From Mycobacteroides immunogenum (GTDB lineage: Bacteria > Actinomycetota > Actinomycetes > Mycobacteriales > Mycobacteriaceae): a stretch of DNA of 64,000 nucleotides. The stretch lies in contig NZ_CP011530.1 of NCBI RefSeq assembly GCF_001605725.1, positions 124,001 through 188,000 on the forward strand. The letters are read 5' to 3'. The translations under genes were made by a program, and so were the position numbers. The notes under the pieces are model-generated. The model saw only the letters and a list, made by a program, of their open reading frames with translations, ran no database searches and was not told the DNA's origin. Below, one piece after another: positions 2,101 to 42,484 of the stretch (position 1 is its first letter; each line of letters starts with the position of its first letter).

Positions 2101-2487
2101 ATGATCATCGCCGGGCTGGTACTGACGGGCATTGCCGCTCTCATCCACGTGTACATCTTCTATTTGGAGTCGATCTCCTGGACCAGCGAGAAGACCCGGA
2201 AGGTCTTCGGGGTCCGCACCGCGGAGGAAGCCGAGATCACCAAACCGCTGGCCTTCAACCAGGGTTTCTACAACCTGTTTCTGGCCATCGCCATCGGCGT
2301 GGGCACGGTGCTGTGGGCGCGTGGTTGTACCTCGGTGGGTGCGACGCTGGTGTTCACCGGCGCCGGATCGATGGTCGCCGCCGGGCTGGTGCTGCTGATC
2401 TCATCGCCCGATAAGGCCTCGGCGGCCCTGAAGCAGTTGGTACCGCCGCTGCTGGGAATCATCGCGCTGGCAGCCGGACTGCTCTAG
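2101..2487 (+). CDS. DUF1304 family small membrane protein
   Basis: A 128-residue protein with four predicted transmembrane helices and the DUF1304 features: an N-terminal helix ending in HVYIFYLESISW, then a TRKVFG segment and an AFNQGFYNLFLA helix. Function is unknown in this family; members are small inner-membrane proteins found across actinobacteria. The start ATG 2101 lies 26 bases after the MFS stop, so it may share that transcript. Its stop overlaps the stop of the convergent rhodanese gene by three bases. Confidence 0.85.
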   Translation: MIIAGLVLTGIAALIHVYIFYLESISWTSEKTRKVFGVRTAEEAEITKPLAFNQGFYNLFLAIAIGVGTVLWARGCTSVGATLVFTGAGSMVAAGLVLLISSPDKASAALKQLVPPLLGIIALAAGLL

Positions 2488-3320
2488 GCCGGGGTGGGAC
2501 CCGTCGCGACGGGGCGTTGCGGGTCGCTTGACCACTCCGACCACGAGCCCGGGTAGAGCGCCGCGTCGTATCCGGCGATGGCAAGCGCCGCGATCTGATG
2601 GGTGGCGGTGACGCCCGAGCCGCAGTACACCGTGACGGGTGCGGCACCCGCGCCCAACTTTTCGAAGCGTTCACGCAACTCGGCCACCGGTTTGAAGGTG
2701 CCGTCCGCGGTCAGGTTCTCGGCGGTGGGAGCGGACACGGCACCAGGGATGTGCCCGGCACGAGGGTCCAGGGGTTCTTCATCGCCGCGATAGCGGGCCG
2801 CGGCGCGTGCGTCGAACACCAGATTGTCTGGTGATTGGGCTTGAGCGGCAACCGCATCGGCGTCGACGGCGGCAAGACCGTGCAGTGAGTTGATGGTGAT
2901 GTCGCCCGCGGCGGGGACAACCTCCTCCGTCGCGACCGGACCACCCGACCGCTGCCAGGCAGCCCAGCCGCCATCGAGTATCCGGACATTCGACACGCCC
3001 GCTGCGCGCAGCAGCCACCAGCCGCGCGCAGCCGCCTGCCCGTTCCAATCGTCGTAGACCACCACGGCGTCGCCGTCGTTCAGACCCCAGCGGCGGGCGC
3101 TGGCCTGAAGAGCCTGCGGCGTGGGCAGCGGATGGCGCCCGCGACCAGTGGCGGAGTGATCGGCGAGGTCGGCATCGAGATCCACGAACACCGCGCCGGG
3201 CAGGTGACCCGCCAGGTAGGCCGGACGACCGTTCGGCGCCATGACTGTCCAGCGCACGTCCAGCAGCCGGACATCAGTCAGCCGGTCAGCGAGTTCGGAG
3301 GGCGAGATGAGCACGTCCAT
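2484..3320 (-). CDS. Two-domain thiosulfate/3-mercaptopyruvate sulfurtransferase (rhodanese)
   Basis: A 278-residue enzyme with an inactive N-terminal rhodanese domain (about 5-125, containing AGHLPGAVFVDLD) and a catalytic C-terminal rhodanese domain (about 150-270). The active-site loop is CGSGVTA with Cys233; CGSGVTA-type loops are seen in 3-mercaptopyruvate sulfurtransferases and in SseA-like enzymes. The protein transfers sulfane sulfur to thiophilic acceptors such as cyanide or thiols. It is convergent with the DUF1304 gene and followed on the same strand, 28 bases upstream, by an SDR gene, so it may be the end of that operon, although no functional link is evident. Confidence 0.9.
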   Translation of the reverse strand: MDVLISPSELADRLTDVRLLDVRWTVMAPNGRPAYLAGHLPGAVFVDLDADLADHSATGRGRHPLPTPQALQASARRWGLNDGDAVVVYDDWNGQAAARGWWLLRAAGVSNVRILDGGWAAWQRSGGPVATEEVVPAAGDITINSLHGLAAVDADAVAAQAQSPDNLVFDARAAARYRGDEEPLDPRAGHIPGAVSAPTAENLTADGTFKPVAELRERFEKLGAGAAPVTVYCGSGVTATHQIAALAIAGYDAALYPGSWSEWSSDPQRPVATGPTPA

Positions 3321-3348: not shown

Positions 3349-4179
3349 CTATCGTTGGGTGCTGCCCGCGTCGACGGGAAGGCTCACCGAGGTGATGTAC
3401 CGCGCCTCATCCGAGGCCAGGAACAGCGAGGCGTTGGCGATATCGCTCGGCTCCACCCACGGCAGGTCGAGCAGGTTCATGGTCTTGGCCGCGACGGCGA
3501 AATCCTCGCGGGTCGGCTCTTCGAGGTCGGGCCGGAACATCCCCCGCACGTGCTCGTTCTGAATCATCGGGGTATCGACGTTGGTCGGATGCACCGTGTT
3601 GACCCGAATCTTGTAGGGGGCAAGTTCGATGGCCAGTGCGCGCATGAGGCCGACCACGCCGTGCTTGGCCGCCACGTAGTGCGACACCCCGACCAGCCCG
3701 CGCAGCCCGGCGATGGAGCTGACCAGCACCATCGCGCCGCCGCCACGCGCTATCAGGTGCGGTGTGGCCGCGCGGGTGGTGTGCCACACTCCGGTCAGAT
3801 TGACGTCAAGCATTGTCTGCCAATCACTCTCGGGCATATCCAGCAGCATCCCACGCGAGGTGATGCCGGCGGTGGCGCACACGATGTCGAGCCCGCCAAA
3901 CTCGGTGACCGCGTCCTGGGTGAAGGTCTGCACATCGCGCAGATTGCGCACGTCCACCACCCCGGGAATGACCCGGCGCCCGGCCGACTCGACGAGCTCC
4001 GAGGTCTTGTCGAGGTCGGCGCGAGTGGCCGGCGGGGTGATGGTGGTGTGTACCGGGGCGCAGATATCGAGCGCGATGATGTCGGCGCCCTCCTGCGCGA
4101 AACGCACCGCCTGAGCGCGCCCGATGCCCCGGGCGGCGCCGGTCACCAGGGCCACCTTGCCCGTCAATCGTCCAGTCAC
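3349..4179 (-). CDS. Mycofactocin-coupled SDR family oxidoreductase
   Basis: A 276-residue Rossmann dehydrogenase: glycine motif GAARGIG at about 14-20, catalytic Ser154/155 and YxxxK (Tyr168, Lys172). The N-terminal LTGKVALVTGAARGIGRAQA, the insertion after the second strand (residues 40-56) and the Arg/Ala-rich pattern match the mycofactocin-associated SDR subfamily (TIGR03971 type), whose NAD cofactor is non-exchangeable and is re-oxidised by mycofactocin. Substrates in this subfamily are usually secondary alcohols. It lies one base from a second such SDR, which overlaps a BVMO, so all three are probably co-transcribed and serve one oxidation route. Confidence 0.85.
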   Translation of the reverse strand: MTGRLTGKVALVTGAARGIGRAQAVRFAQEGADIIALDICAPVHTTITPPATRADLDKTSELVESAGRRVIPGVVDVRNLRDVQTFTQDAVTEFGGLDIVCATAGITSRGMLLDMPESDWQTMLDVNLTGVWHTTRAATPHLIARGGGAMVLVSSIAGLRGLVGVSHYVAAKHGVVGLMRALAIELAPYKIRVNTVHPTNVDTPMIQNEHVRGMFRPDLEEPTREDFAVAAKTMNLLDLPWVEPSDIANASLFLASDEARYITSVSLPVDAGSTQR

Positions 4180-4180
4180 G

Positions 4181-4975
4181 TCATGCCTTCTGTGTCAGTC
4201 CGGCGTCGACCACCAGCTGGGTGCCGGTGATGTACCGCGCTTCGTCGGAGGCCAGGAAGACCACCGCGTTGCTGATGTCGACGGCTTCTACCCACGGCAC
4301 CGGTAACAGGGTGCGGGCCGCCAGCGCCTCGGCGGCATCCTCGACAGTGGGGTGCTCCAGATCGGGGCGCAGCCGTGCGATGACCGCCGGGTTGAGGATC
4401 ATTCCGGTGCTTACCGCGCCGGGATGCACGGTGTTCACCCGAATACCCTGCGGCCCCAGTTCGTTGGCGGCCGTACGAGCCAAGCCGACGACGGCATGCT
4501 TGCTTGCGGTGTAGTGCGCCGTGTGGGCGGTGCCCTTGAGCCCGTTGGTGGAGCTGATGATGATCACCGAGCCGCCGTCCAGAAGGTGGGCGGCACCGGC
4601 CTTGACCGTGTGCCAGGCCCCGGTGAGGTTCACGTCCAGCGCGCGCCGCCAGGAGTCCTCGGTGAGCTCGCATGATGGAGCCAGGCCGTCGTAGACCCCG
4701 GCATTGGCGACCACGATGTCCAGTCGGCCGAGCATCCGCACCCCGGTGTCGATGGCCTCGGTCAGTGCCGCGGCGTCACGGACATCTGCGCACGCTCGCA
4801 CGCAACGACGACCGTGCTGTTCGACGGTGGCGGCGGTGTGGGGCAGTTCTTGCGAACCGGGCAGGTCGATGGCGATCACGTCGGCGCCTTCCTCGGCCAG
4901 GCGCGCACAGTGCGTGCGCCCCATACCCTTTCCGGCACCTGTGACGACGGCAACGCGCCCGGCCAGCCGGGTCAC
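4181..4975 (-). CDS. Second mycofactocin-coupled SDR family oxidoreductase
   Basis: A 264-residue SDR with VVTGAGKGMGRTHC at the N-terminus, an NAD-binding Asp and the catalytic YTASK. The extended insertion after the second strand again indicates the mycofactocin-dependent class. The start is placed at GTG 4975, not at the upstream ATG that opens the frame, because GTG overlaps the BVMO stop as GTGA (4972-4975) and begins right at the Rossmann fold. It is paralogous to the adjacent SDR at 3349. Two such SDRs in tandem after a monooxygenase suggest oxidation of different hydroxyls or of successive intermediates; exact substrates unknown. Confidence 0.85.
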   Translation of the reverse strand: MTRLAGRVAVVTGAGKGMGRTHCARLAEEGADVIAIDLPGSQELPHTAATVEQHGRRCVRACADVRDAAALTEAIDTGVRMLGRLDIVVANAGVYDGLAPSCELTEDSWRRALDVNLTGAWHTVKAGAAHLLDGGSVIIISSTNGLKGTAHTAHYTASKHAVVGLARTAANELGPQGIRVNTVHPGAVSTGMILNPAVIARLRPDLEHPTVEDAAEALAARTLLPVPWVEAVDISNAVVFLASDEARYITGTQLVVDAGLTQKA

Positions 4976-6585
4976 GCGTTGCTCCCGGTCAAGGTGAAGC
5001 CTTTGTACCCGCTGGCCGCGACGTCGGCACAGATGGTGCCGTAGACCCCGAACCCGCCGATGAACGGCATGAAAACCCTTGGCTTGCCAGGGATATTGGC
5101 GCCCAGATACCACGAATTGGCCTGGGGGAACATGGTGGAGGCGGCTCGCTCGTTGCATTCGGCCACCCAGTCGGATACAGCGCGAGGCTGGGCCTCCACC
5201 GTCGAGAAACCATGGTCGGCCATGTGGTTGAGCAGATCGCCGATCCAGTCGACGTGCTGCTCGGCGCCCAGCACCATATTGGCAAGCACCGAAGGGCTAC
5301 CCGGACCGGTCACGATGAACAGATTGGGGAACCCGTCGACTCCGAGGCCCAGGTAAGTGCGGGGACCGGCCTGCCAAGCATCCGCGAGTGGCTGCCCTCC
5401 GCGGCCGCGGATGTCGATGCGATTGAGCGATCCGGTCATGGCGTCAAAGCCGGTGGCGAACACGATCATGTCGAGGCCGTAATGCTGTGCGGCGGTGGCG
5501 ATGCCCTGCCCATCGATGGACTCGATCGGGGTGGCTCGCAGATCCACGATATGCACGTTGCTGCGGTTGTAGGTCTGAAAGTAGTTGGTGTCCGTGCAGA
5601 TCCGCTTCGTTCCTATGGGATGGTCGGTGGGTATGAGGACGTCGGCAACGGCAGGATCGTCGATGACGGCCCGCACCTTCTCCTCGAAGAAGGCGCGGGC
5701 CGCGTCGTTGGCGCGGATATCGGTGGTCTGATCCGGGAAGGTCTTTCCGAAAAGGACACCGCCCAGATTCCAGCGCTTCTCGAACGCGGCGCGGCGCTCC
5801 TCCGCGGAGATATCCAGCGTCTTGCGCGGATGAGCCTGATGCGGTGAACCGCCACCGCTTTCCCTGGACAGCCGGCGCCGCTCGTCATAGGTCGCCTTGA
5901 CCTCGGCCCGCCGCTGCGGCGTGATCACGGTATTACCCGCGGGCACGCTGTAGTTGGCGGTGCGCTGAAAAACGAAGAGCTCCTGCGCGGTTTGCGCGGC
6001 GATCGGCACCAGTTGAATGCCCGAGGAACCGGTGCCGATCACCCCGACCCGCTTCCCGGTGAAATCCACCCCGGCCGCCGGCCAATGCCCGGTGTGGTAC
6101 AGCTCCCCGGTGAAGGAGCCGAGGCCCGCGATATCGGGCATGTTCGCGGTGGACAGCGCGCCGGTGGCCAGCACGCAGAACCGGGCGGTCACCGCGTCAT
6201 CCCGGTCGGTGCGCACCGACCACAGCAGGTGCTCTTCGTCGAACACCGCCGACGTGACACGGGTGTCGCAGCGGATATCGCGGCGCAGGTCGAACCGGTC
6301 GGCGACATGATTGATGTAACGCAGGATTTCCTCTTGGGTGGCGTACTTCTCCGTCCAATCCCAATCCTGTTGTAGCTCATCAGAGAACGAATACGAGTAG
6401 TCGATGCTTTCCACATCGCAGCGCGCGCCCGGGTAGCGATTGAAGAACCAGGTGCCGCCCACGTCCGTGCCCGCTTCGAACACGATGACCGACAGACCCT
6501 GCGACCGCAGCCGTTGCAGGGCATACAACCCGGCGAAGCCGGCGCCGACCACCACCACGTCGAAGTTCTTCACGAGGGCTTTCAC
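4972..6585 (-). CDS. Flavin-containing / Baeyer-Villiger monooxygenase
   Basis: A 537-residue class B flavoprotein monooxygenase. It has the FAD-binding VVGAGFAGLYALQ (about residues 12-24), the complete Baeyer-Villiger fingerprint FxGxxxHxxxWP at 158-169 (FTGELYHTGHWP), and the NADPH-binding GVIGTGSSGIQ at 181-191. Class B enzymes insert one oxygen atom next to a ketone, giving an ester or lactone. It heads an operon with two mycofactocin-type SDRs and is divergent from an HsaA-like gene, with 125 bases between. With an esterase gene (9821) nearby, a ketone to ester to alcohol sequence is plausible, for example on a steroid side chain; substrate is inferred. Confidence 0.9.
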   Translation of the reverse strand: MKALVKNFDVVVVGAGFAGLYALQRLRSQGLSVIVFEAGTDVGGTWFFNRYPGARCDVESIDYSYSFSDELQQDWDWTEKYATQEEILRYINHVADRFDLRRDIRCDTRVTSAVFDEEHLLWSVRTDRDDAVTARFCVLATGALSTANMPDIAGLGSFTGELYHTGHWPAAGVDFTGKRVGVIGTGSSGIQLVPIAAQTAQELFVFQRTANYSVPAGNTVITPQRRAEVKATYDERRRLSRESGGGSPHQAHPRKTLDISAEERRAAFEKRWNLGGVLFGKTFPDQTTDIRANDAARAFFEEKVRAVIDDPAVADVLIPTDHPIGTKRICTDTNYFQTYNRSNVHIVDLRATPIESIDGQGIATAAQHYGLDMIVFATGFDAMTGSLNRIDIRGRGGQPLADAWQAGPRTYLGLGVDGFPNLFIVTGPGSPSVLANMVLGAEQHVDWIGDLLNHMADHGFSTVEAQPRAVSDWVAECNERAASTMFPQANSWYLGANIPGKPRVFMPFIGGFGVYGTICADVAASGYKGFTLTGSNA

Positions 6586-6710
6586 ACTTGGTCACGCTAG
6601 GGCCGCAGCGGTTCTCGGCGAGCCTGCGTTCCCAGTGACCGGGCGGTCGGATCCAACGGACCGCTGATCGGGAAAAGGCCCTATGGTGGCGGCGCCGCGA
6701 GCGCACTATC

Positions 6711-7898
6711 GTGCCCATGACCGAACGCGTACTCGATCGCATCAACGATCTCGCCGACCAGCTGCGTGAGCAGGCCTGGGAGGCGGAGAAGCTGGGCAAG
6801 CTGCCCGACGAGACCGCCAAGATGCTCAAGGCGGCCGGACCCATCCGGCTACTTCAACCCAAGAACCATGGCGGCTACGAGGTGCATCCTCGTGAGTTCG
6901 CCGAAACCGTAATGGCCACCGCCGCACTCGATCCGGCATCGGGATGGATTTGCGGCGTTGTCGGTGTACACCCCTGGCAGGTTGCCTTTGCCGACCCCAA
7001 GGTCGCCGAGGAGATGTGGGCCAAGGATCAGGACATCTGGATGGCCTCCCCCTATGCGCCAACAGGCGTGGCCACCCCGGTGGACGGCGGCTACCTCTTC
7101 AACGGGCGCTGGCAGTTCAGCTCGGGCACCGACCACTGTGACTGGATCATCCTGGGCGCGTTGCTGGGCGATGCCGACGGCAAGCCCGTGATGCCACCGA
7201 AGATGCTGCACATGATCCTGCCGCGAACGGACTACCAGATCGTCGAAGATTCCTGGAATGTGGTGGGGCTGCGCGGCACCGGATCCAAGGACATCGTGGT
7301 CGCGGACGCATTCGTCCCGGCGTACCGGGTGATGGACGGCGACGAGGTGATCGACGGCACCGCGCAGCGCAAGGCCGGGATGACGGACACCCTGTACCGG
7401 ATGCCGTGGTCGACGATGTTCCCGCTGGGCATCAGCTCGGCGGTGATCGGCATCGCCGAGGGCGCGTTGGCGGCACACCTGGACTACCAGCGCGAGCGCG
7501 TCGGCGCCCAAGGCACGGCGGTCAAGGACGATCCGTACGTGCTGTTCGCGATCGGGGAGGCCGCCGCGGATATCAATGCCGCGCGCCAGGAGATTCTTGC
7601 CAACGTCGACAAGATCTGGGACATCGTAGATTCCGGTAAGGAGGTGTCCTTCGCCGACCGCGCCGCGGGCCGTCGCACCCAGGTGCGTGCGGCGTGGCGA
7701 GCCGTGATGGCCGTCGACCAGATCTTCTCCCGCTCGGGCGGTAACGCGATGCGCTTGGACAAGCCCCTGCAACGTTATTGGCGTGACGCCCACACCGGGC
7801 TCGCGCACGCTATTCACGTGCCCAGCACGGTGTTTCACGCGTCGGCTCTCAGCTCGCTGGGAATCGAACCGCAGGGCCCGCTGAGGGCGATGATCTGA
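6711..7898 (+). CDS. HsaA-like flavin-dependent monooxygenase (acyl-CoA dehydrogenase fold)
   Basis: A 395-residue protein of the acyl-CoA dehydrogenase superfamily that aligns by eye with 3-HSA hydroxylase HsaA (LPDETAKML, SGWICGVVGVHPWQ, SSGTDHCDW, VGLRGTGS, PLQRYWRDAHTGLAHA). In cholesterol catabolism HsaA, using reduced flavin from HsaB, ortho-hydroxylates the phenolic ring A to a catechol. Its stop overlaps the start of an HsaC-like dioxygenase (ATGA), which would cleave that catechol, so the pair is coupled in order of reaction. No HsaB reductase gene is in the window. It is a paralogue or functional analogue; steroid specificity is inferred. GTG 6711 or ATG 6717 could start it. Confidence 0.85.
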   Translation: MPMTERVLDRINDLADQLREQAWEAEKLGKLPDETAKMLKAAGPIRLLQPKNHGGYEVHPREFAETVMATAALDPASGWICGVVGVHPWQVAFADPKVAEEMWAKDQDIWMASPYAPTGVATPVDGGYLFNGRWQFSSGTDHCDWIILGALLGDADGKPVMPPKMLHMILPRTDYQIVEDSWNVVGLRGTGSKDIVVADAFVPAYRVMDGDEVIDGTAQRKAGMTDTLYRMPWSTMFPLGISSAVIGIAEGALAAHLDYQRERVGAQGTAVKDDPYVLFAIGEAAADINAARQEILANVDKIWDIVDSGKEVSFADRAAGRRTQVRAAWRAVMAVDQIFSRSGGNAMRLDKPLQRYWRDAHTGLAHAIHVPSTVFHASALSSLGIEPQGPLRAMI

Positions 7899-8797
7899 TG
7901 CTGAAAAGCTTGGGATACATCACCATCCAGACCCAGGACATGGACCGCTGGCGACATTTCGCCCTGCGGGTGCTGGGCTTTGCCGAAGGCAGTGGGCCCG
8001 ATCCCGAGGCCCTGTACCTGCGCATGGACGAACGGGCCGCACGCATCGTGGTGGTGCCCGGAGAAACGGATCAGGTGGTCACCGTCGGCTGGGAAGTGCG
8101 CGACGGCACCGCATTGCGTGAGACCGTGCGAGCAGTGGAAGGGGCCGGCATCGGTGTGAAACAGCTGTCCGCCGATGAGGCGGAGGTGCGCCGGGTCGAG
8201 GAGGTGGTGACCTTCACCGATCCCGTCGGCACCACCGTCGAGGTTTTCCATGGTCCGGTGCTGGACCACAGCCCGGTGGTGACGCCGTACGGCGCGCGAT
8301 TTGTCACCGGCGCCCAGGGGCTCGGGCATGTGGTGTTGCCGGTTACCGACCCGAACGGCGCTTTCACCTTCTATACCGAGGTGCTGGGGTTCCGGCCGCG
8401 GGGTGCGTTTCGCATTCCCGCTCCGCCGGAGTTCGGCCCGATGCGGGTGCGTTTCCTGGGCATCAACGAGCGCCACCACAGTCTGGCGCTATGCCCCGCG
8501 CCGCACGGCGGTGCGCCCGGGCTGGTTCATGTGATGGTCGAGGTGGACAGTCTCGACGCCGTCGGACAGGCCCTCGATCGCGTGCTCAAGGACGGCTACT
8601 CGGTGTCCTCCACGCTGGGCCGGCACACCAACGACAAGATGGTGTCGTTCTACGTCCGGGCACCCGGCGGATGGGATATCGAGTTCGGCACCGACGGGGT
8701 ACTTGTCGACGAAACGTATTACACCGCTGAGGAAATCACCGCAGACAGCTATTGGGGCCACGACTGGTCCGGCAGCGAGCCGCTCGCCGCCATGTAG
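7898..8797 (+). CDS. HsaC/BphC-like extradiol catechol dioxygenase
   Basis: A 299-residue type I extradiol dioxygenase made of two VOC modules. The iron ligands of the family are present in the C-terminal module: His144 (GHVVLPV), His211 (LVHVMVEV) and Glu262 (DIEFG), and the GRHTNDKMVSFY segment matches HsaC/BphC. HsaC cleaves the catechol 3,4-DHSA between C4 and C5 in steroid ring A degradation. The ATG overlaps the HsaA-like stop, so the two are one translation-coupled unit. A strong hairpin follows 23 bases after the stop, ending the transcript. Confidence 0.88.
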   Translation: MLKSLGYITIQTQDMDRWRHFALRVLGFAEGSGPDPEALYLRMDERAARIVVVPGETDQVVTVGWEVRDGTALRETVRAVEGAGIGVKQLSADEAEVRRVEEVVTFTDPVGTTVEVFHGPVLDHSPVVTPYGARFVTGAQGLGHVVLPVTDPNGAFTFYTEVLGFRPRGAFRIPAPPEFGPMRVRFLGINERHHSLALCPAPHGGAPGLVHVMVEVDSLDAVGQALDRVLKDGYSVSSTLGRHTNDKMVSFYVRAPGGWDIEFGTDGVLVDETYYTAEEITADSYWGHDWSGSEPLAAM

Positions 8798-8819
8798 CCC
8801 CACCCTGGTCTCACCGAAT

Positions 8820-8867
8820 AGACGTATAAGCCCCCAAACACACGGTGTGCTGGGGGCTTATACGTCT
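8820..8867. terminator. Long perfect inverted repeat after the HsaC-like gene
   Basis: AGACGTATAAGCCCCC (8820-8835) pairs perfectly with 8852-8867 across a 16-base loop that itself holds the short pair CACAC/GTGTG. There is no U-tract after it, which is usual in mycobacteria. It sits between the HsaC-like stop and the IclR promoter, so termination is the simplest role. Confidence 0.6.
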
Positions 8868-8926
8868 GCTAGGGGCACTTGTGAGCCGGGGTTGTGGCGG
8901 CAGACACACTCATGGTACAAAAAGGT

Positions 8927-8945
8927 ATATGACTAATAGTCATAT
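8927..8945. promoter_or_regulatory. Perfect palindrome ATATGACT-AAT-AGTCATAT, candidate IclR operator
   Basis: Eight-base arms separated by three bases, an AT-rich island in GC-rich DNA, 34 bases upstream of the IclR start at 8979. Position and symmetry fit an autoregulatory operator. Whether IclR or another island regulator (PadR, MarR, KstR-type) binds cannot be told. Confidence 0.55.
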
Positions 8946-8978
8946 GTGACCGAGACCCCAAAGCCGTGGGAGGGCACC

Positions 8979-9824
8979 ATGACAACCACCATCACCGCCG
9001 ATGCGACCACCCCGAGCGCCGTCATCGATCGGGTGTCTCTGCTGCTGGACGCCTTCGACGGTCCGGGCCGGCTTACGCTGGCGCAGCTGGTGCGCCGCAC
9101 CGGTCTCCCCCGCTCATCCGTGCACCGGATGCTGGAGCGGCTGGTGCAATTGCGCTGGCTGCGGCGTGATGGACGTGACTATGAGCTGGGTACCCGGCTG
9201 GTCGAGCTGGGCTCCCTCGCGGTGCATCAGGATCGGCTGCACGCGGCGGCGCTGCCGATGCTGCACGAGCTGCATCGCGCCACCGGCCTGGTGGTCCACC
9301 TGTCCATCCTCGACGGCGCCGACGTCGTCTACTTGGAGAAGATCGGGGCCGGGATGGGCGCGGCCGTCACTACCCGCATCGGTGGGCGCCAGCCCGCGCA
9401 CTGCACCGCATCCGGGAAGGCCATCCTGGCGTACCGGGGTGACACGCTGGATGGCTTTACCGCGCTGGCCCGCAAGACACGCTTCTCCATCGGCTCGGCC
9501 GCGCAACTGCGGCCGGAGCTCGACAAGGTGCGGGGGCACGGGGTGGCCTTTGATCGCGAGGAATTGCAGCAGGGCATCGGCTGTGTGGCTGCTCCGATCG
9601 GCAGTATCGGCGATGCGGTCGCGGCGGTTTCGGTGTGCGGGCCCATGGCGCGGATGAGCTTTGATCAGCGTCTGGTGGCCCCCGTCCGGATGACGGCGAT
9701 GGGGATTTGGCGCAACGTCGAGAACGGCCCAAGCCGGGTGGCCCCGACATTGCAGCCGATCCGGCCGCTGCGCCCCGCCCCCGCGCGACGCGAGATGAGC
9801 TCGCGCACACTGCAGTACGCGTGA
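8979..9824 (+). CDS. IclR family transcriptional regulator
   Basis: A 281-residue regulator: winged helix at about residues 10-75 (LTLAQLVRRTGLPRSSVHRM), then the IclR effector domain with SGKAILAY and a C-terminal Cys-containing AAVSVCGP strand. ATG 8979 is chosen over GTG 8946 because GGAGGG ends four bases before it. IclR proteins sense aromatic acids, sugars or catabolic intermediates. It overlaps the esterase start (GTGA at 9821-9824), so it probably regulates that gene and perhaps the divergent or upstream ring-degradation genes. The C-terminal 35 residues are Pro/Arg-rich and may be a non-conserved tail. Confidence 0.87.
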   Translation: MTTTITADATTPSAVIDRVSLLLDAFDGPGRLTLAQLVRRTGLPRSSVHRMLERLVQLRWLRRDGRDYELGTRLVELGSLAVHQDRLHAAALPMLHELHRATGLVVHLSILDGADVVYLEKIGAGMGAAVTTRIGGRQPAHCTASGKAILAYRGDTLDGFTALARKTRFSIGSAAQLRPELDKVRGHGVAFDREELQQGIGCVAAPIGSIGDAVAAVSVCGPMARMSFDQRLVAPVRMTAMGIWRNVENGPSRVAPTLQPIRPLRPAPARREMSSRTLQYA

Positions 9825-10741
9825 GTCTCGATCCTCAGATAGCGGCGCTGCTGCCGGCGCTGAACGAGGGCTTCCCGCGCGTCGAAACGATGACCGGCGC
9901 GCAGGCGCGCGCGGCGATCCGTGCCCGGTACGCGCCGCCCACTGAGCCCACACGTATGCGTGCGGTGACCGATGAACGCGCCTCCGGACCGGGCGGTGAG
10001 ATACCGATCCGGGTGTACCGCCCCGACACGCCAGGACCCCTGCCCACCGTCGTGTTTGCCCATGGTGGCGGATTCGTGTTCTGCGACTTGGATTCTCATG
10101 ACGAGCTGTGTCGCCGCCTGGCCGCTCAGACACCCGCGGTGGTGGTATCGGTCGGCTATCGGTGCGCGCCGGAACATCGATGGCCGACGGCGGCCCAGGA
10201 CGTGTTCCTGGCGGCGTGTTGGGTGGTGCGTAATGCCCGCACGCTCGGTGGTGACCCCGCACGGGTGCTGGTCTGCGGTGACAGTGCGGGAGGGAATTTG
10301 GCCGCGGTCACCACGTTGATGGCCCGCGACCTGGGTGGGCCCGCGTTGGCGGGCCAGATTCTGATCTATCCGGTGCTGGACGCGGATTTCGATACCCCGT
10401 CTTACCGTCGGTTCGCGACCGGCTACTACAACACGCGTGCCGCGATGCGATGGTACTGGGACCAGTACCTGCCTGATCATGGGCTGCGCGGACACCCGTA
10501 TGCGGCGCCGCTGCACGCCGACCTGGAGCGGCTGCCACCCGCGGTGGTCGTCACCGCACGCTTTGACCCGCCGTGCAGTGAGGGTGAGGCCTATGCGAGC
10601 GCCCTGCGAGAAGCGGGCGTACCGGTGCGGTACAGGTGCTATGACAACGCGGTTCACGGATTCATGACCATGCTGGGGACTGACCTGGCCGGTGTGGCGA
10701 TCGAACGGCTATGCCGCGATGTCAACGACCTGCTCGGTTAA
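9821..10741 (+). CDS. Alpha/beta hydrolase, hormone-sensitive lipase (HSL) type esterase
   Basis: A 306-residue esterase with the HSL oxyanion motif HGGG (81-84), nucleophile elbow GDSAGG (Ser155), and catalytic Asp249 and His279. The start is taken as GTG 9821, overlapping the IclR stop; an upstream ATG would add 38 Arg/Pro-rich residues that lie over IclR codons. HSL-type mycobacterial esterases hydrolyse short acyl esters. Within this island it could hydrolyse the ester formed by the BVMO at 4972, or an acetylated steroid; it is not the HsaD (meta-cleavage product hydrolase) type. It is convergent with, and overlaps by four bases, the small Cys protein at 10738. Confidence 0.88.
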   Translation: MSLDPQIAALLPALNEGFPRVETMTGAQARAAIRARYAPPTEPTRMRAVTDERASGPGGEIPIRVYRPDTPGPLPTVVFAHGGGFVFCDLDSHDELCRRLAAQTPAVVVSVGYRCAPEHRWPTAAQDVFLAACWVVRNARTLGGDPARVLVCGDSAGGNLAAVTTLMARDLGGPALAGQILIYPVLDADFDTPSYRRFATGYYNTRAAMRWYWDQYLPDHGLRGHPYAAPLHADLERLPPAVVVTARFDPPCSEGEAYASALREAGVPVRYRCYDNAVHGFMTMLGTDLAGVAIERLCRDVNDLLG

Positions 10742-10995
10742 ACCCCGTATTCCCCGGCCAGCACCGGCAGTCGTCCGCTGCGCGCGGCATCAAGAATCGA
10801 GCCACGCAACGCCGAGCACACCAGGAACAAACCGGTGCAGTTCCGGCGCTCCGGGCACCGCGTCTCGGCCTCGGTATTCCACTGCACGCTGGTCTGCTGC
10901 CAGCTGCTCTTGCGCGCCAAAACCTCGGCCCCGCAGCGTTGGCAGTCCACCGGCACCATCGGCGAATCCGCCAGACGGTTATCCGTGCGGATCAC
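10738..10995 (-). CDS. Small Cys-rich (zinc-ribbon-like) protein coupled to KshA
   Basis: An 85-residue protein with a DCQRC pair near residue 18 and further cysteines in RCPERRNC and LVCSAL. GTG 10995 overlaps the KshA stop (GTGA), so it is translated with the oxygenase. Spacing of the cysteines does not fit a classical plant-type or bacterial-type ferredoxin; a zinc ribbon or an unusual iron-sulfur site are both possible. Similar short proteins are sometimes annotated as ferredoxins beside mycobacterial Rieske oxygenases, from memory. A role in delivering electrons to, or stabilising, KshA is inferred from coupling only. Confidence 0.65.
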   Translation of the reverse strand: MIRTDNRLADSPMVPVDCQRCGAEVLARKSSWQQTSVQWNTEAETRCPERRNCTGLFLVCSALRGSILDAARSGRLPVLAGEYGV

Positions 10996-12149
10996 GATGA
11001 CGCGCTCGCGGCCATGGCAGCGAGGTTCTCCTCAACCTGTGCCTTCCACACCTCACCCGGACGGGTGGTGTCCACCTCGTACTCGAACCTATCGGTCATC
11101 TCGGAGGTGACCTCGGCGGTGTCCACATAGAACTGTTCGTACCAGCGGCGCAGCTGGTACACCGGGCCGTCTTCCTCGCACAGCAGCGGATTGTCGATGC
11201 GCGCCTTGTTCTTCCAGATCTGCACGTCCTGCTCGAAGCCGGCCTTGATCCAGTCGCCCAGTGTGACGGCGGCGGCCAGTGCGTCGTCGTCGGACAGCCC
11301 CGCCGACTTCTTCACGATGATGCCGTACTGCAACACGAAGGAATTGGCGTCGATCGGGTAGTGGCAGTTGATCAGGATCGAATTCGAGTCGTACCCGACG
11401 AAGTGGTACGTCAGATCGTCGATCATGAATGACGGGCCGTAATACGACGCGACGGATGTCTGTCCGGTCATCTGCACGCCCTCGGGGATGGGTAGATCGG
11501 CGCGCGGCTCTCCGGTGTTCATGTATTGGGTCGCGATGTGTCCCTCGAAGATGTTCTTGAAGTACGTGGGCACGGCGCCGTGCACGTAGAAGAAGTGCGC
11601 CATGTCGACCACATTGTCGATGATCTCGCGGCAATTGGTGTTGACAACTGTTGTGTACCAATGCCAATCGGTCCACTCGTCACTATCGGCTCCCTCGATG
11701 CGGGGAATGGTGACGTCTTCGGGAGGCGGATTGCCTTGTGGGTCGTTCCAGATGAACAGCATGCCGTCCTGCTCCAGGGTGGTCCAGGTGGCGGTCCGTG
11801 CCAGCTTGGGTGTCCGGCGGCTGTAGGGCACCTTCTTGCAGCGCCCGTCACCGCCCCAGCGCCAATCGTGGAACGGGCAGGCGATTTCGTCGCCCTTCAC
11901 GTCGCCTTGGCTGAGGTCGCCGCCCATATGCCGGCAGTACGCGTCCAGGACACTCACCGTGCCATCCCCCGCGCGGAAGACCACAAGCTTCTGGCCGAAA
12001 GCGTGGACCGCATGCGGCTTGCCATCTCCGAAGTCTTGGATGAGGCCGAGGCAATACCAGCCACGGGCGAATCGTGCCGGCGCCGCGTCGGCTTCGATGT
12101 TCCGAACCGCCGCGGCACCGGATTCGGTATCTGACTGGGCTGTCGTCAT
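10992..12149 (-). CDS. kshA: Rieske oxygenase, 3-ketosteroid 9-alpha-hydroxylase oxygenase component (KshA-like)
   Basis: A 385-residue Rieske non-haem iron oxygenase. The Rieske cluster ligands are Cys72, His74, Cys91 and His94 (CRHMGGDL ... CPFHDW), and the mononuclear iron site is seen in DNVVDMAHFFYVH (His185, His190) with a later Asp. Overall sequence strongly resembles KshA, which with reductase KshB hydroxylates C9 of AD/ADD and so, together with KstD, opens steroid ring B. It is divergent from a KstD-like gene. No Shine-Dalgarno precedes ATG 12149; instead TAGAAC lies 7-12 bases upstream, fitting a leaderless transcript. No KshB is next to it, though the 379-residue reductase at 19636 is of the right type. 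Confidence 0.88.
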   Translation of the reverse strand: MTTAQSDTESGAAAVRNIEADAAPARFARGWYCLGLIQDFGDGKPHAVHAFGQKLVVFRAGDGTVSVLDAYCRHMGGDLSQGDVKGDEIACPFHDWRWGGDGRCKKVPYSRRTPKLARTATWTTLEQDGMLFIWNDPQGNPPPEDVTIPRIEGADSDEWTDWHWYTTVVNTNCREIIDNVVDMAHFFYVHGAVPTYFKNIFEGHIATQYMNTGEPRADLPIPEGVQMTGQTSVASYYGPSFMIDDLTYHFVGYDSNSILINCHYPIDANSFVLQYGIIVKKSAGLSDDDALAAAVTLGDWIKAGFEQDVQIWKNKARIDNPLLCEEDGPVYQLRRWYEQFYVDTAEVTSEMTDRFEYEVDTTRPGEVWKAQVEENLAAMAASASS

Positions 12150-12314
12150 AGACCCGTTCTAACAACCGAATTCCTGCCGTAGCAGGGGGTTGGTCCGCTC
12201 ACCGGACATCGTGTGTGGCGATTGACCGTCGTCTCCCGCTGGAAGGGAAACCCGGGCGTGGGGTGGCGTGTATCGGCTTAGCCTCGCTGCCGTCCACGCG
12301 AATTCGACGGAGGT

Positions 12315-14030
12315 ATGCACAGATGGCGTCAGCACCCCCCCGGACCGATCCCGGCCGGAACCGTCGCAGATGACATCGAGGTCGATCTGCTGGTTGTCGG
12401 CTCCGGGACGGGAATGGCCGCCGCGCTGGCCGCCAGTGAACTCGGGTTGTCGGTACTGATCGTCGAGAAATCGCACTATGTGGGCGGGTCTACCGCCCGC
12501 TCCGGAGGAGCCCTGTGGTTGCCTGCCAGCCCCGTGCTGGGGGCCGCGGGAACCGGCGACACCCCGGAGCGGGCGCGTACCTATCTGCGGGCGGTCGTTG
12601 CGGGAAGCGCCCCGGATGCGCGCAGTGACGCCTTCCTTGAGCACGAGGCGGCCACCGTCGAGATGCTGATGCGCTCGACCCCGATGCGCTTCACCTGGTG
12701 CCGCGACTACGCGGATTACCACCCGGAAGAGCCCGGTGGCAGCGCGGCGGGGCGCACCTGCGAATGCCGTCCGTTCGACGCGTCAGTGCTGGGCGAGTAC
12801 CGCGGCAGGCTGCAGCCGGGCGTGATGAAGCCGCCGGCGGTGCCGATGCCCGTCACCAGCGCTGACTACCGCTGGATGAACCTGATGGCGCGGCTACCGC
12901 GTAAAGCATTGCCACTCATCGTGAAACGCGTCGTACAGGGTGTCGGCGGGGCCGTGCTGGGCCGGCGGTACCTGGCGGGCGGGCAGGCGCTGGCCGCCGG
13001 ACTATTCGCGGGGGTGTTACGCGCGGGCATACCGATCTGGACCGATACTTCCCTGGTACACCTCACCATGGAGAGTGGCCGTGTCGCGGGCGCGGTGGTC
13101 ACCCATGACGGACGAGAGATCACGGTGACAGCCCGCCGCGGTGTGGTGTTGGCTGCCGGAGGCTTTGACCACGACATGGAGATGCGGCACAAATTCCAGT
13201 CGACGGCACTGGGCGAGAACATGAGCCTGGGTGCCGATACCAACACCGGCGATGCCCTCCGGATAGGCCAGGACAGCGGTGCGGCAATCGATTCCATGAA
13301 CCACGCGTGGTGGTTCCCGGCCGTGGCACCACTACCCGGCGCCGCGCCGAAGGTCATGCTGGCGGAGCGCTCGCTGCCGGGATCGTTCATCGTGGACCAG
13401 ACCGGGAACCGGTTCATCAACGAAGCCGCCGACTATATGTCGTTCGGTCAGCGGGTGCTGGAGCGGGAGCGCCGCGGTGCCCCGGTGGAATCGATGTGGA
13501 TCATTTTCGACCAGCAGTACCGCAACAGTTACGTCTTCGCGGGCCAGCTGTATCCCCGGATGCCGATACCGGGCAAGTGGTTTGACGCAGGGATTGCCCA
13601 TCGTGCCGGCAGTCTGGTTGAGCTCGCATCGTTGGCAGGGTTGCCGGAGGGCGAGTTCCTGGCCACCGTGCGGCGATTCAATGAATCGGCGGCCGCCGGC
13701 GACGATGCCGAATTTCACCGCGGCCGTAGCGCGTACGACCGTTACTACGGCGACCCGACAGTCACGCCGAATCCGAATCTGCGGCCGTTACGCGACGGAC
13801 CCTTCTATGCGGTGCGCATGGTTCTCAGCGACCTGGGCACCTGCGGTGGCCTGCGTGCCGACGAGCACGCGCGGGTAGTGCGTGAAGATGGCAGTGTCAT
13901 CGGGGGCCTGTACGCGATCGGCAACACCGCCGCCAATGCCTTTGGTGCCACCTACCCAGGTGCGGGAGCAACAATTGCCCAGGGCCTGGTGTACGGCTAC
14001 ATCGCGGCACGCGACGCGGCCGCGCGTTGA
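12315..14030 (+). CDS. kstD: FAD-dependent 3-ketosteroid delta-1-dehydrogenase (KstD-like), start uncertain
   Basis: A 571-residue flavoprotein of the KstD/fumarate reductase family: FAD motif LLVVGSGTGMAAALAASE, GGSTARSGGALWLP, active-site tyrosines in DYADYHPEEPGG and ADYMSFGQ (near residue 374), and the C-terminal TYPGAG (near 547), matching the KstD Tyr/Tyr/Tyr/Gly set. It introduces the C1-C2 double bond of 3-ketosteroids. The start is odd: ATG 12315 directly abuts GGAGGT, whereas ATG 12323 has ideal spacing but is out of frame. A run of seven C (12335-12341) separates them; one C fewer would read MASAPPGPIPAG into this frame. Possibly a sequencing error, a slippery tract or a true weak start. 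Confidence 0.85.
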   Translation: MHRWRQHPPGPIPAGTVADDIEVDLLVVGSGTGMAAALAASELGLSVLIVEKSHYVGGSTARSGGALWLPASPVLGAAGTGDTPERARTYLRAVVAGSAPDARSDAFLEHEAATVEMLMRSTPMRFTWCRDYADYHPEEPGGSAAGRTCECRPFDASVLGEYRGRLQPGVMKPPAVPMPVTSADYRWMNLMARLPRKALPLIVKRVVQGVGGAVLGRRYLAGGQALAAGLFAGVLRAGIPIWTDTSLVHLTMESGRVAGAVVTHDGREITVTARRGVVLAAGGFDHDMEMRHKFQSTALGENMSLGADTNTGDALRIGQDSGAAIDSMNHAWWFPAVAPLPGAAPKVMLAERSLPGSFIVDQTGNRFINEAADYMSFGQRVLERERRGAPVESMWIIFDQQYRNSYVFAGQLYPRMPIPGKWFDAGIAHRAGSLVELASLAGLPEGEFLATVRRFNESAAAGDDAEFHRGRSAYDRYYGDPTVTPNPNLRPLRDGPFYAVRMVLSDLGTCGGLRADEHARVVREDGSVIGGLYAIGNTAANAFGATYPGAGATIAQGLVYGYIAARDAAAR

Positions 14031-14720
14031 TCAGTCCGTCGGATCGGACTGGGTGGAAAGCTTTTCGGCGTCCACCCGCTTTTCCACCTCGCGCCAGTAG
14101 CCGGGGACCAGGCGAGGCGTGCCGCCATCCGGACCCGCCTTGTCGAACTCCTCGGCCGCCGCGGCCAGATCCTCGATCATCATCAGCGCCAGATCGCGCT
14201 CGGCCGCGTAGTAGCGCTCGGCCCATTTGAGCGCGACACGAGAGTATGCCCAGGCGGGCTGGGCTGCCGCGCCATCCGCGTCCAGCGCGGCCCGTCGCTG
14301 CATGTTCTCGGAGTACTCCACGTGGCGTTCCAGAATCTCCTTGAGCCGGGCAGGGTCCGTCATATGCCCCTGCATGACGCGGAGCACCACGCTGTGTTTG
14401 AGGACCTGAGGCTCGGCGGGCGTCTCGTTGGCCCACTGGCTCATCGCCGCCATACCCGCCGGAGTGATCTTGTACAGTCGCCGGCTGCGAGCGCCGTTGT
14501 CATGGTCTACCCGTGAGGTGGCATACCCGATCTTCTCCAGTTTGCGTAGCTCGGAGTAGATCTGGCTGAACGAGGGGCTCCAGTAGAAGTAGCTGATACT
14601 CCAGTCGGCCCATTTCTTGATGTCATAGCCGGAAACCTCTTCCTCGTAGGAGAGCATTCCGAGGATTGTCCAGCTGGTGGCAGCAAGATTGGGTTCGTCG
14701 GGCGAACTGGTTGCTGCCAT
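14031..14720 (-). CDS. PadR family transcriptional regulator
   Basis: A 229-residue regulator: PadR winged helix in the first about 95 residues (TSWTILGMLSYEEEVSGYDI, then YSELRKLEKIGYATS) followed by a long helical C-terminal domain (about 110-215) typical of PadR-s1/VirR proteins. PadR proteins repress detoxification and phenolic-acid genes and bind ligands at the dimer interface. It converges on the kstD stop with no gap and is divergent from a MarR gene, so the two regulators share an 85-base promoter region that contains a near-palindrome AACGTC-A-GATGTT at 14735-14747. Confidence 0.88.
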   Translation of the reverse strand: MAATSSPDEPNLAATSWTILGMLSYEEEVSGYDIKKWADWSISYFYWSPSFSQIYSELRKLEKIGYATSRVDHDNGARSRRLYKITPAGMAAMSQWANETPAEPQVLKHSVVLRVMQGHMTDPARLKEILERHVEYSENMQRRAALDADGAAAQPAWAYSRVALKWAERYYAAERDLALMMIEDLAAAAEEFDKAGPDGGTPRLVPGYWREVEKRVDAEKLSTQSDPTD

Positions 14721-14805
14721 CGATCAAGGGTAGCAACGTCAGATGTTCCGCAGGGTGGTCCGGGCCGCTCAGCGGGACGGCGGTAGCTGTGTCAACATCA
14801 CTGAT

Positions 14806-15240
14806 ATGGATGAGCAGGAATGGCAGCCGCTCGGCGCGTTGATGCATCGCGTGTCGGCAGCGTTGCGATCGGAGATCACGGCGGCGTTGGCGCCGCTGAA
14901 TCTGCCATTCCCCCAGTACGTCTGCATGCGGGTGTTGTCCAAGAACCCGGGCTGGTCCAACGCGGATCTGGCCCGCGCCATCGACGTGACCCCGCAATCG
15001 ATGAACACCGTCCTGCAGGCGCTGCAGGATGCCGGACTGGTGTCGCGGCCGGACACTGTCGACTCCGGCCGCGCACGTCCAGCGCAGTTGAGCCGGTCCG
15101 GGACGGCCTTGCTCAAACAGGCAGAAGCGTTGGCCCGGGAGGCCGAAGAGCGTTTGTTATCGGGCATCTCGGCACGGCAGCGCAGCGACTTCTTTCAAAC
15201 GCTGCGTGATATCGCCGGCGAGGATGCTGCCACTCCGTAA
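14806..15240 (+). CDS. MarR family transcriptional regulator
   Basis: A 144-residue winged-helix protein with the MarR core: LNLPFPQYVCMRVLSKNPG, NADLARAIDVTPQSMNTVL recognition region and the DSGRARPAQLSRSG wing. ATG 14806 is preferred over the upstream opening ATG (14743), because the extra 21 residues are unlike MarR proteins and lie in the shared promoter region. MarR proteins are usually repressors released by phenolic or oxidised ligands. Divergent orientation to PadR suggests mutual or shared control. A DUF1254 lipoprotein gene follows 39 bases after its stop on the same strand and is the probable target. Confidence 0.85.
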   Translation: MDEQEWQPLGALMHRVSAALRSEITAALAPLNLPFPQYVCMRVLSKNPGWSNADLARAIDVTPQSMNTVLQALQDAGLVSRPDTVDSGRARPAQLSRSGTALLKQAEALAREAEERLLSGISARQRSDFFQTLRDIAGEDAATP

Positions 15241-19635: not shown

Positions 19636-20775
19636 CTATCCGGCGGGCAGGTCCAGCACCAGGCGACCTTCGCCGCGCGAGACGCAGGTCAGGATCTGTC
19701 CCTCTTCTCGTTGCGACTCGGTGAGGATCTGATCGCGGTGATCTGCGTTGCCCGCCAGTACGTGCACCTTGCACGTGCCGCAGAAACCCTGCTGGCACGA
19801 GTAGGCCACGTGGGGCAGCCGTTCCTTGATGACATCTAGTGCGGTGCGGTCGGCGGGTACGTTCAGCACCGGTCCGCCCGGTCCCAGCTGCACCTCGAAC
19901 GGATGACCGTCCACCACGGGTGCCGCCGCGAAACGTTCGAAATGCAGTTCCACTGAAGGCATTTCGAGCAAGCGCCGCTGCAGCACCGCGAGCATCGGGG
20001 CGGGACCGCAGCAGTACACCGCGTCGTTCTCACCCACGTCGGGCAGCAGGTCGTCGGCCGTCGGCAGCCCGGACTGATCGTCAGTCCGGATGATCACCCG
20101 ATCACCAAAGCGCTTGAGTTCGTTGAGGAACGGAAGCGAATCCCGGTGCCGTCCGGTGTACACCATGGTCCACGGCTTACCCAGCTGTTCGGCGAAGGCG
20201 ATCATGGACAGGATGGGCGTGATGCCGATACCGCCGGCCACGAAATGCAGCTTGCGGGGTCCCGGCTGGGTCATGGCTAGCGGGAAGGCGTTGCGCGGTC
20301 CCAGGATCGACACCGTGGCGCCGATCTGCAGCGCGTCGTGTACCTCGATCGAGCCGCCACCGCCGTCGGGGATGCGGCGTACCGCGATGCGGTAGTGGTA
20401 CGGATCCGACACATCACCGCACAGCGAGTACTGCCGCATCCGTCCGGACGGCAGCAGCAGGTCCAGGTGTGCGCCCGGGTGCCATGGCGGCAGCCGCTCC
20501 CCGTCGGGCGACGCCAGCACTAGGCTTGCCACGTCCTGATCCTTGGCCTCGATCCAGCGGTCCTTGACCACCAGCTGCAGCGTCCGGTCGACGTGGTTCT
20601 CCGGTGGCTTCTTGAGAATCAGCAAGGCGCCGATGGCGCGGACCGCGACCGGGAACAGCGCGGTGCCCAGTGCGATCGTGGGTGAAACCGGCAGCGTGCC
20701 GTACAGCGTGGGCGGCAGTGAGGGCCGCTTGCGCTTGGGGGTGGACTGGGCCGTGCGGCGGAATCGGTCGAACAT
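19636..20775 (-). CDS. Ferredoxin-NAD(P) reductase with C-terminal [2Fe-2S] domain
   Basis: A 379-residue phthalate-dioxygenase-reductase/VanB type protein: N-terminal basic and hydrophobic leader (1-60), FMN/FAD domain (about 70-170, RQYSLCGD), NAD domain (180-290, FVAGGIGITPILSM) and a plant-type ferredoxin domain (295-379) with Cys in SCQQGFCGTC plus LTC. It passes electrons from NAD(P)H through flavin to a 2Fe-2S cluster and on to an oxygenase. The start codon overlaps by one base the stop of the PF10118 gene, so its natural partner is probably that diiron-like protein; it is also of the type that could serve KshA. Confidence 0.9.
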   Translation of the reverse strand: MFDRFRRTAQSTPKRKRPSLPPTLYGTLPVSPTIALGTALFPVAVRAIGALLILKKPPENHVDRTLQLVVKDRWIEAKDQDVASLVLASPDGERLPPWHPGAHLDLLLPSGRMRQYSLCGDVSDPYHYRIAVRRIPDGGGGSIEVHDALQIGATVSILGPRNAFPLAMTQPGPRKLHFVAGGIGITPILSMIAFAEQLGKPWTMVYTGRHRDSLPFLNELKRFGDRVIIRTDDQSGLPTADDLLPDVGENDAVYCCGPAPMLAVLQRRLLEMPSVELHFERFAAAPVVDGHPFEVQLGPGGPVLNVPADRTALDVIKERLPHVAYSCQQGFCGTCKVHVLAGNADHRDQILTESQREEGQILTCVSRGEGRLVLDLPAG

Positions 20776-39472: not shown

Positions 39473-39479
39473 GGTCGTC

Positions 39480-40091: not shown

Positions 40092-40100
40092 GTACACCTC

Positions 40101-40128
40101 ATGACCTGTGGCATCGCGGTCAGGTCAT
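40101..40128. promoter_or_regulatory. Inverted repeat ATGACCTG...CAGGTCAT upstream of ethA
   Basis: Perfect eight-base arms (40101-40108, 40121-40128) with a 12-base spacer, 75 bases before the ethA ATG and 9 bases after the methyltransferase stop. It could be an operator for ethA or a weak terminator of the preceding operon. Confidence 0.4.
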
Positions 40129-40202
40129 TGGCACAGTGTGATCGGGATCGCAAGGGTCTAACTTTACTTTTCTCGCCGAACCGTAAGCGGTAGCATCGCG
40201 GC

Positions 40203-41693: not shown

Positions 41694-41705
41694 GCATTTC
41701 TCCAG

Positions 41706-41740
41706 AACGGCCGGGTGTCACGACATGGCACCCGGCCGTT
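41706..41740. terminator. Bidirectional hairpin terminator between ethA and tetR
   Basis: AACGGCCGGGTG (41706-41717) pairs perfectly with 41729-41740 over an 11-base loop, between the convergent ethA and TetR stops. The 12-base GC-rich stem can serve both strands. Confidence 0.75.
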
Positions 41741-41749
41741 TCGTCAAAG

Positions 41750-42409: not shown

Positions 42410-42484
42410 GGAGTCTATGCGGTCGGCTCCGCGTGAAAGGACTGCGATGTACGGTCGATCGATGATCCGCTGGGAGGGTTCGGT

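Follow-up and report, generated by a model that had tools for sequence, protein, structure and literature searches.

The closest described system is most likely the second steroid cluster of mycobacteria, termed C-19+ in Mycolicibacterium smegmatis, which we take to extend over MSMEG_2851-2901 and to hold hsaA2, hsaC2, hsaD2, and a PadR-like repressor. This cluster lies outside the KstR regulon (PMC5962712), and its natural activation is given as not established (PMC10672877) and its genes as acting on yet unknown steroids (PMC6593523). A steroid cluster 2 subclade of Rhodococcus jostii RHA1 has been described as being of unknown function (PMC4810484). Here, an island of 11.4 kb (positions 3349-14720) was analyzed in the window, a stretch of 64 kb from Mycobacteroides immunogenum that spans positions 124001-188000 of one 5.57 Mb contig. 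It comprises genes for a Baeyer-Villiger monooxygenase (BVMO), two mycofactocin-type short-chain dehydrogenases (SDR1 and SDR2), HsaA-like and HsaC-like ring enzymes (HsaA2 and HsaC2), an IclR regulator, an HSL-type esterase, KshA, KstD, and a PadR regulator, all in intact open reading frames (ORFs).

A role of the island in steroid catabolism is well supported. As deduced from its sequence, it is most likely, with moderate confidence, a compact and separately regulated cluster that funnels C21 17-acetyl (20-keto) steroids into the 9,10-seco pathway. The BVMO would insert oxygen between C17 and C20, converting a progestin to its 17-acetate ester, from which the HSL-type enzyme, a proposed steroid-17-acetate esterase, would release the 17-hydroxyl. 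SDR1 and SDR2 would oxidize this hydroxyl to the 17-ketone, 17-hydroxysteroid oxidation being the likely role of SDR1, and the mycofactocin radical-SAM maturase was found to be present (673 bits). Ring B would be opened by KstD and KshA, and ring A would be hydroxylated by HsaA2 and cleaved by HsaC2. The cleavage would be finished by an HsaD-like hydrolase whose gene, 4.2 Mb distant, has the same predicted operator before it, while the KshB and HsaB reductases would be supplied from the cholesterol locus. The progestin-type substrate had been suggested in the original prediction, a note made from the letters of the window alone, and this suggestion was deemed the best available because an STMO-type (steroid monooxygenase-type) BVMO, an adjacent HSL, and the SDRs are present and one predicted operator joins side-chain and ring genes. 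From these parts we infer the substrate, the order of the steps, and the inducer.

The assignment of the first step is supported by the following data. The best match of the BVMO in the PDB was the STMO of Rhodococcus rhodochrous (831 bits), followed by phenylacetone monooxygenase (PAMO) at 611 bits, and its identity was 67.3% to STMO over nearly the whole length and 51.4% to PAMO. The type I BVMO fingerprint and the FAD/NADP motifs were intact, and STMO was the nearest among the solved BVMOs. All cluster BVMOs except that of locus L092 were 62.6-75.9% identical to STMO, and 50-54% to PAMO where both were scored. STMO itself is reported to convert progesterone to testosterone acetate (PMC12239570), and a BVMO only 31% like STMO had no success on progesterone (PMC12724338).

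The ring enzymes were deduced to be a second lineage. HsaA2 (391 bits) and HsaC2 (373 bits) both scored under the 450-bit cut-offs of the HsaA (NF045629) and HsaC (NF045631) models, while the canonical HsaA, HsaC, and HsaB of the same genome, at 698 kb, exceeded theirs (676 and 564 bits for the HsaA and HsaC copies); HsaA2 was 43% identical to the canonical HsaA and HsaC2 was 47% identical to the canonical HsaC. This places the HsaA-like and HsaC-like genes of the original prediction in a lineage separate from the cholesterol set. For KstD, model NF009479 gave 1076 bits against a cut-off of 793. KshA carries the PF19298 (KshA_C) domain, and its best solved match was 4QDF, a 3-ketosteroid 9alpha-hydroxylase oxygenase; the Rieske CxH-CxxH motif and the two histidines of the mononuclear iron site were matched. 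The iron ligands of HsaC2 were checked with ad hoc motif patterns, by which the first His and a C-terminal Glu were matched and the second His was not.

The island had been thought to hold a possible full route within 11 kb. This was rejected because the gene for the HsaD-like hydrolase lies far from the island and those for the reductases are at the cholesterol locus. The annotated island proteins include neither an HsaD-type hydrolase nor a reductase of the KshB or HsaB type. The best match for KshB (55%) was at the 698 kb locus, and a match of 26% was at 19675-20604 of the window, outside the island. The canonical 698 kb locus consists of hsaA, hsaC, and hsaB without hsaD between hsaA and hsaC (L096:6866-9561), and a search of the genome gave no HsaD above the model cut-off. 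The nearest HsaD-like protein, HsaD2, is encoded at 4.37 Mb (L189:10078-10929) and is 65% identical to an HsaD-like hydrolase found near HsaC2 in relatives. Seven near genomes likewise had no HsaD over the cut-off, and their HsaD2 was 94-97% identical to that of the window genome. Two further genomes, which lack HsaC2 (G022 and G069), also had no HsaD over the cut-off; G029 has one.

The promoters of the island share a 15-bp motif, which is probably an operator. The matrix was seeded from a palindrome spotted by eye and trained on 105 upstream regions of HsaA2 and KshA from loci L109-L184 (other genera or species), giving the consensus TCCCGCTCAGCGGGA. The promoters of BVMO/HsaA2 and KshA/KstD contained its two best matches in the window, and the fourth-best lay 29 bp from the first. 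Twenty shuffled windows gave a mean of 1.5 matches above 12 bits and a maximum of 18.1 bits; therefore, single matches are not significant by score, and the argument rests on position and conservation. Among the named loci, the motif lay upstream of every one of the 43 BVMO genes whose start is over 500 bp away from HsaA2, and of 14 of the 15 closer ones. It preceded HsaA2 in 56/59 cases when this gene was not directly behind KshA and in 0/22 when it was. The counts for HsaA2 and for KshA (26/29) are in-sample since the matrix was trained on such upstream regions. Control genes in the same loci rarely or never had the motif (HsaC2, 0/70; SDR1, 1/22; SDR2, 1/23). KstD had it in 20/20 relatives looked at versus 98 of 1000 random 300-bp windows.

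A strict pattern, written with prior knowledge that it would match both island sites and that of HsaD2, gave 34 sites genome-wide against 15 for a reversed control. Twenty-seven of these are inside ORFs judged coding by GC content at third codon positions (GC3). The remaining seven include three sites at 45-121 bp before a gene start, namely those of BVMO/HsaA2, KshA/KstD, and HsaD2, and four that touch or lie in ORFs. Near-start sites also occur among the 27, at 698096 (10 bp inside canonical hsaC) and at 1313971 and 4774955 (57 and 101 bp before ORFs, inside another ORF). The HsaD2 site is 56 bp upstream of the gene, and this distance was the same in 7/7 near genomes, 6 of which show letter changes in the site. 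Since the motif also stands before the remote HsaD-like hydrolase, a step that the island lacks, the island gives the impression of a single regulon, one part of which lies far away. Control by KstR was rejected, as the only match to the KstR operator TNNAACNNGTTNNA in the window was at 40335, inside a flavin monooxygenase (FMO)-like gene, and none was in the island. The candidate binder of the motif would be IclR, which was near in 61/79 named loci, or PadR, which followed KstD in 20/20 relatives. Mutants of the PadR-like MSMEG_2868 reportedly derepress C-19+.

That the layout is an isolated one was not supported. The HsaC2 marker gene (E up to 1e-120) was present in 262/395 sampled same-genus genomes, BVMO and an HsaC-like gene were together in 36 of 71, and related sets were present in Nocardia, Rhodococcus, and Gordonia. 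In the sample of 71 same-genus genomes, BVMO was found in 36/39 genomes with HsaC2 versus 5/32 without (Fisher 2e-11) and KstD in 36/39 versus 3/32 (Fisher 4e-13), both values being computed without regard to shared ancestry. In genomes with both genes, BVMO was at most 4.6 kb from HsaC2 in 35/36 and KstD at most 42.4 kb in 31/36, the others being on different contigs. BVMO, HsaA2, HsaC2, IclR, and HSL occurred together in 41/79 named loci and in 28/41 loci of the same-genus set; such gene counts depend on identity thresholds of 50-60% and flanks of ~10 kb, several of which were ended early by contig ends, and related species recur among the loci, the named-locus and same-genus sets partly overlapping. 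The order KshA-KstD-PadR was kept in all 20 relatives sampled (20 of 41 same-genus places), with the genes adjacent in 16 and other genes between them in 4 (L223, L224, L225, and L235). The nearest named relatives at the locus were Mycobacterium sp. D16Q13, Mycobacterium sp. D16R12, and Mycobacteroides sp. LB1. The whole block was kept in the three closest relatives, two of which also have the GntR/MFS left flank. Conservation as a unit, which the original prediction had proposed to check, thus held insofar as BVMO and KstD track HsaC2 and the closest relatives keep the block, but BVMO and the SDRs were patchy elsewhere. The co-occurrence, synteny, and shared motif showed that the unit is more than chance, and from the co-occurrence and joint presence across loci the island was deduced to be most likely a compact form of the larger, C-19+-type cluster.

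Published data on progesterone bear on the C21 17-acetyl reading from both sides. The KstD2 of Rhodococcus ruber, whose gene tag is next to kshA2, is reported to prefer progesterone (PMC5348764), and by a personal communication quoted in mBio 2025, derepression of the 'ADD+' cluster lets M. smegmatis use progesterone (PMC12239570). Several observations weigh against the reading. The same mBio authors credit the luciferase-like monooxygenase (LLM) MSMEG_4862, and not a BVMO, for progesterone use by M. smegmatis (PMC12239570). The KstD-like genes of the named Nocardia and Rhodococcus loci are 41-46% identical to the island KstD and belong to another lineage, so the preference of the R. ruber enzyme transfers only loosely. 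By score alone, no single motif match in the window went beyond the shuffles, and the motif also precedes HSL in 10/48 and IclR in 5/58 named loci. BVMO was present in 5/32 same-genus genomes without HsaC2 and absent from 3/39 with it. Within 10-kb flanks, where some contigs end early, BVMO was found in only 2/7 Rhodococcus/Gordonia/Antrihabitans loci and 10/14 Nocardia loci, and HSL in 6/7 and 10/14, respectively; therefore, the esterase gene is sometimes present with no BVMO close by. Of the 55 other mycobacterial loci, only 13 had SDR1 and only 20 had SDR2 in the neighborhood of HsaA2.

Alternatively, the island could be a C19 cluster of the C-19+ type, with ring enzymes for androstenedione (AD), testosterone, and testosterone esters, an accessory BVMO, and an HSL that hydrolyzes pre-existing 17-esters. 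This was considered unlikely, albeit by no means negligible. In its favor, 4/7 Rhodococcus/Gordonia/Antrihabitans loci have an HSL but no BVMO close to it, and MSMEG_2868, next in number to MSMEG_2869, is PadR-like. The KshA-KstD-PadR order of 20/20 relatives also fits the consecutive MSMEG_2870 (kshA2) and MSMEG_2869 (kstD2) (PMC5270728), and C-19+ is described as apparently needed for efficient C19 steroid use (PMC5962712). A C19 cluster would, however, leave unexplained why an STMO-type BVMO accompanies HsaC2 in 36/39 same-genus genomes and why the motif is found in 43/43 BVMO promoters apart from HsaA2.

A D-ring route, in which the BVMO lactonizes the 17-ketone (AD to testololactone) and HSL opens the lactone, was judged the least probable. 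A BVMO with an esterase would also suit the lactone path, which fungal BVMOs follow, but for the R. rhodochrous STMO, the closest characterized enzyme, lactonization of AD was not seen (PMC12239570). It is also very improbable that two unrelated modules are merely neighbors, with BVMO, SDR, and esterase acting on aliphatic, terpene, or aryl ketones beside orphan steroid ring enzymes. A Rhodococcus BVMO that converts a ketone to an ester in subterminal alkane oxidation was counted for this view (PMC12724338). Also in its favor, the family of the SDRs, TIGR03971, takes in terpene-alcohol enzymes. Against it stand the one motif common to the BVMO, HsaA2, KshA, KstD, and HsaD2 promoters and the co-occurrence of BVMO and KstD with HsaC2.

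On the preferred C21 17-acetyl reading, in which the STMO-type BVMO, the esterase, and the ring enzymes share a single predicted operator, a C21 20-ketosteroid would be both substrate and inducer, and the recurrence in many mycobacteria suggests a possible purpose for the poorly understood second steroid cluster. It is a tentative but realistic possibility that this cluster represents a regulon devoted to C21 20-ketosteroids (pregnanes) with the 15-bp operator TYCCRSTSASYGGRA and that the remote HsaD2 of the Mycobacteroides-like genomes also serves the cholesterol pathway. If true, this would be relevant to the breakdown of progestin pollutants and to industrial strains, in which clusters of this kind use up steroid products.

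Table 1. Genes and predicted elements of the island (window coordinates)
Feature	Position	Strand	Basis or context
SDR1, mycofactocin-coupled short-chain dehydrogenase	3349..4179	-	TIGR03971 over cut-off; TGxxxGxG and YxxxK motifs
SDR2, second TIGR03971 dehydrogenase	4181..4975	-	TIGR03971 match; YxxxK motif intact; GTG start overlapping BVMO stop
Type I BVMO, STMO type	4972..6585	-	Fingerprint FTGELYHTGHWP
Predicted operator TCCCAGTGACCGGGC	6630..6644		BVMO/HsaA2 divergent promoter; 16.8 bits, top match of the window
Predicted second operator GACCGCTGATCGGGA	6659..6673		29 bp from the first; 12.3 bits; identical in loci L106-L108
HsaA2, HsaA-like flavin phenol hydroxylase, oxygenase part	6711..7898	+	Conserved start probably 6717
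HsaC2, HsaC-like type I extradiol dioxygenase	7898..8797	+	Family match
Terminator-like inverted repeat	8820..8867		Downstream of HsaC2; 17-nt arms, 100%
Perfect 9+1+9 palindrome, possible regulator site	8927..8945		Directly 5' of iclR; kept in L106-L108; distinct from the 15-bp predicted operator
IclR-family regulator, candidate reader of the 15-bp motif	8946..9824	+	
HSL-type esterase	9821..10741	+	LipP1 family over cut-off; HGGG and GDSAG intact
KshA, 3-ketosteroid 9alpha-hydroxylase oxygenase	10992..12149	-	Rieske and mononuclear iron motifs
Predicted operator GTCCGCTCACCGGAC	12193..12207		KshA/KstD divergent promoter; 15.3 bits, second best in window
Predicted weaker second operator copy TCCCGCTGGAAGGGA	12234..12248		9.0 bits
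KstD, 3-ketosteroid delta1-dehydrogenase	12315..14030	+	NF009479 over cut-off; FAD motif, YPGAG intact
PadR-family regulator	14031..14720	-	Conserved KshA-KstD-PadR order

The genes are arranged as a minus-strand group (BVMO-SDR2-SDR1) divergent from a plus-strand group (HsaA2-HsaC2-IclR-HSL), followed by KshA on the minus strand divergent from KstD on the plus strand and then by PadR on the minus strand (Table 1). The BVMO, HSL, two SDRs, KstD, KshA, HsaA-like, HsaC-like, and IclR genes that the original prediction had listed within 11 kb were all recovered intact. It had also named PadR and MarR as island regulators. PadR does belong to the conserved unit, but both lie beyond 14030, and among 79 named loci the MarR gene (14743-15240, beyond PadR) was seen in the closest 3 only. 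The BVMO/SDR2 and IclR/HSL junctions both overlap as GTGA, the starts being those at 4975 for SDR2 (GTG on the BVMO stop) and 9821 for HSL (GTG on the IclR stop) rather than the longest-ORF starts. The palindrome at 8927-8945 had no other copy in the window at up to 3 mismatches. Directly after SDR1, at 2484-3320, is a 3-mercaptopyruvate sulfurtransferase-like rhodanese that is below its model cut-off; of the 79 named loci, none but the closest 3 showed it. A second oxidative cluster lies at 35750-42910 and comprises an FMO-like gene (35750-37426), an SDR (37395-38240), a P450 (38165-39472), a methyltransferase (39480-40091), another FMO-like gene (40203-41693), and a TetR-domain protein.

In most relatives, an insert of ~1.5 kb separates HsaC2 from IclR. 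It was first taken as HsaD/HsaB and proved to be an FAD-binding, PRK07121-type flavoprotein, possibly, as a guess, a ketosteroid dehydrogenase of another kind. It was near HsaA2 in 41/55 other mycobacterial named loci (e.g., L081:10867-12366) and in 0/3 Mycobacteroides-like ones, and it was not found between HsaC2 and IclR in the window island. One motif site, located at 2608744 close to a KstD-like flavoprotein, was dropped; the protein is 41% identical to the cluster flavoprotein, and the site is inside an upstream ORF. Next to the cluster, many mycobacterial relatives have a second, longer BVMO (~650 amino acids; L053:15995-17959 and equivalents) together with an OYE-type reductase and a Dabb-domain protein, and several mycobacteria have two HsaA2-HsaC2 copies a few kb apart (L082, L084, L124, L139, L144, and L158). 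Antisense ORF families from automatic clustering were set aside, having no domain match where searched.

A literature search, mostly without subscription papers, gave no C21 assignment of this cluster type and no report of the 15-bp motif. For R. ruber Chol-4, a figure legend lists kstD-kshA-hyd-hsaC-iclR-padR-ntaA-chnB, including the BVMO-like chnB (PMC6498646), so a BVMO-like gene close to a set of this kind has probably been published before. The Rhodococcus named loci differ from the island in that their KstD-like genes are of another lineage (42-45%). A match to RHA1 through 2OR0 was rejected, as this RHA1 hydroxylase is a more distant paralogue of the cluster HsaA2 and not the orthologue of the R. 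jostii NBRC 16295 gene. In the pdc cluster of Caenibius tardaugens, which acts on progesterone, a BVMO is described as making testosterone acetate that feeds the 9,10-seco pathway, as proposed for the island (PMC12239570). The pdc BVMO is 30% like STMO and is part of a four-gene cluster with an LLM and TetR and LuxR regulators (PMC12239570); unlike in pdc, no luciferase-like (PF00296) match was found in the window. The island BVMO is 67% identical to STMO (PDB 4AOS) with the same motifs. The KstR cholesterol hsa/kshB/kstD locus of the same genome would carry out the same ring-opening chemistry with enzymes of separate lineages (42-47% for HsaA, HsaC, and KstD). The likeness to C-19+, drawn from description rather than sequence, lies in the adjacent gene numbers of kshA2 and kstD2, which the island order fits (PMC5270728). 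The HsaA2/HsaC2/HsaD2 set of C-19+ is present in the window genome, though with HsaD2 at 4.37 Mb; this distance, the 11.4-kb size, the lack of a KshB-type gene inside, and the STMO-type BVMO and HSL in the core distinguish the island from C-19+.

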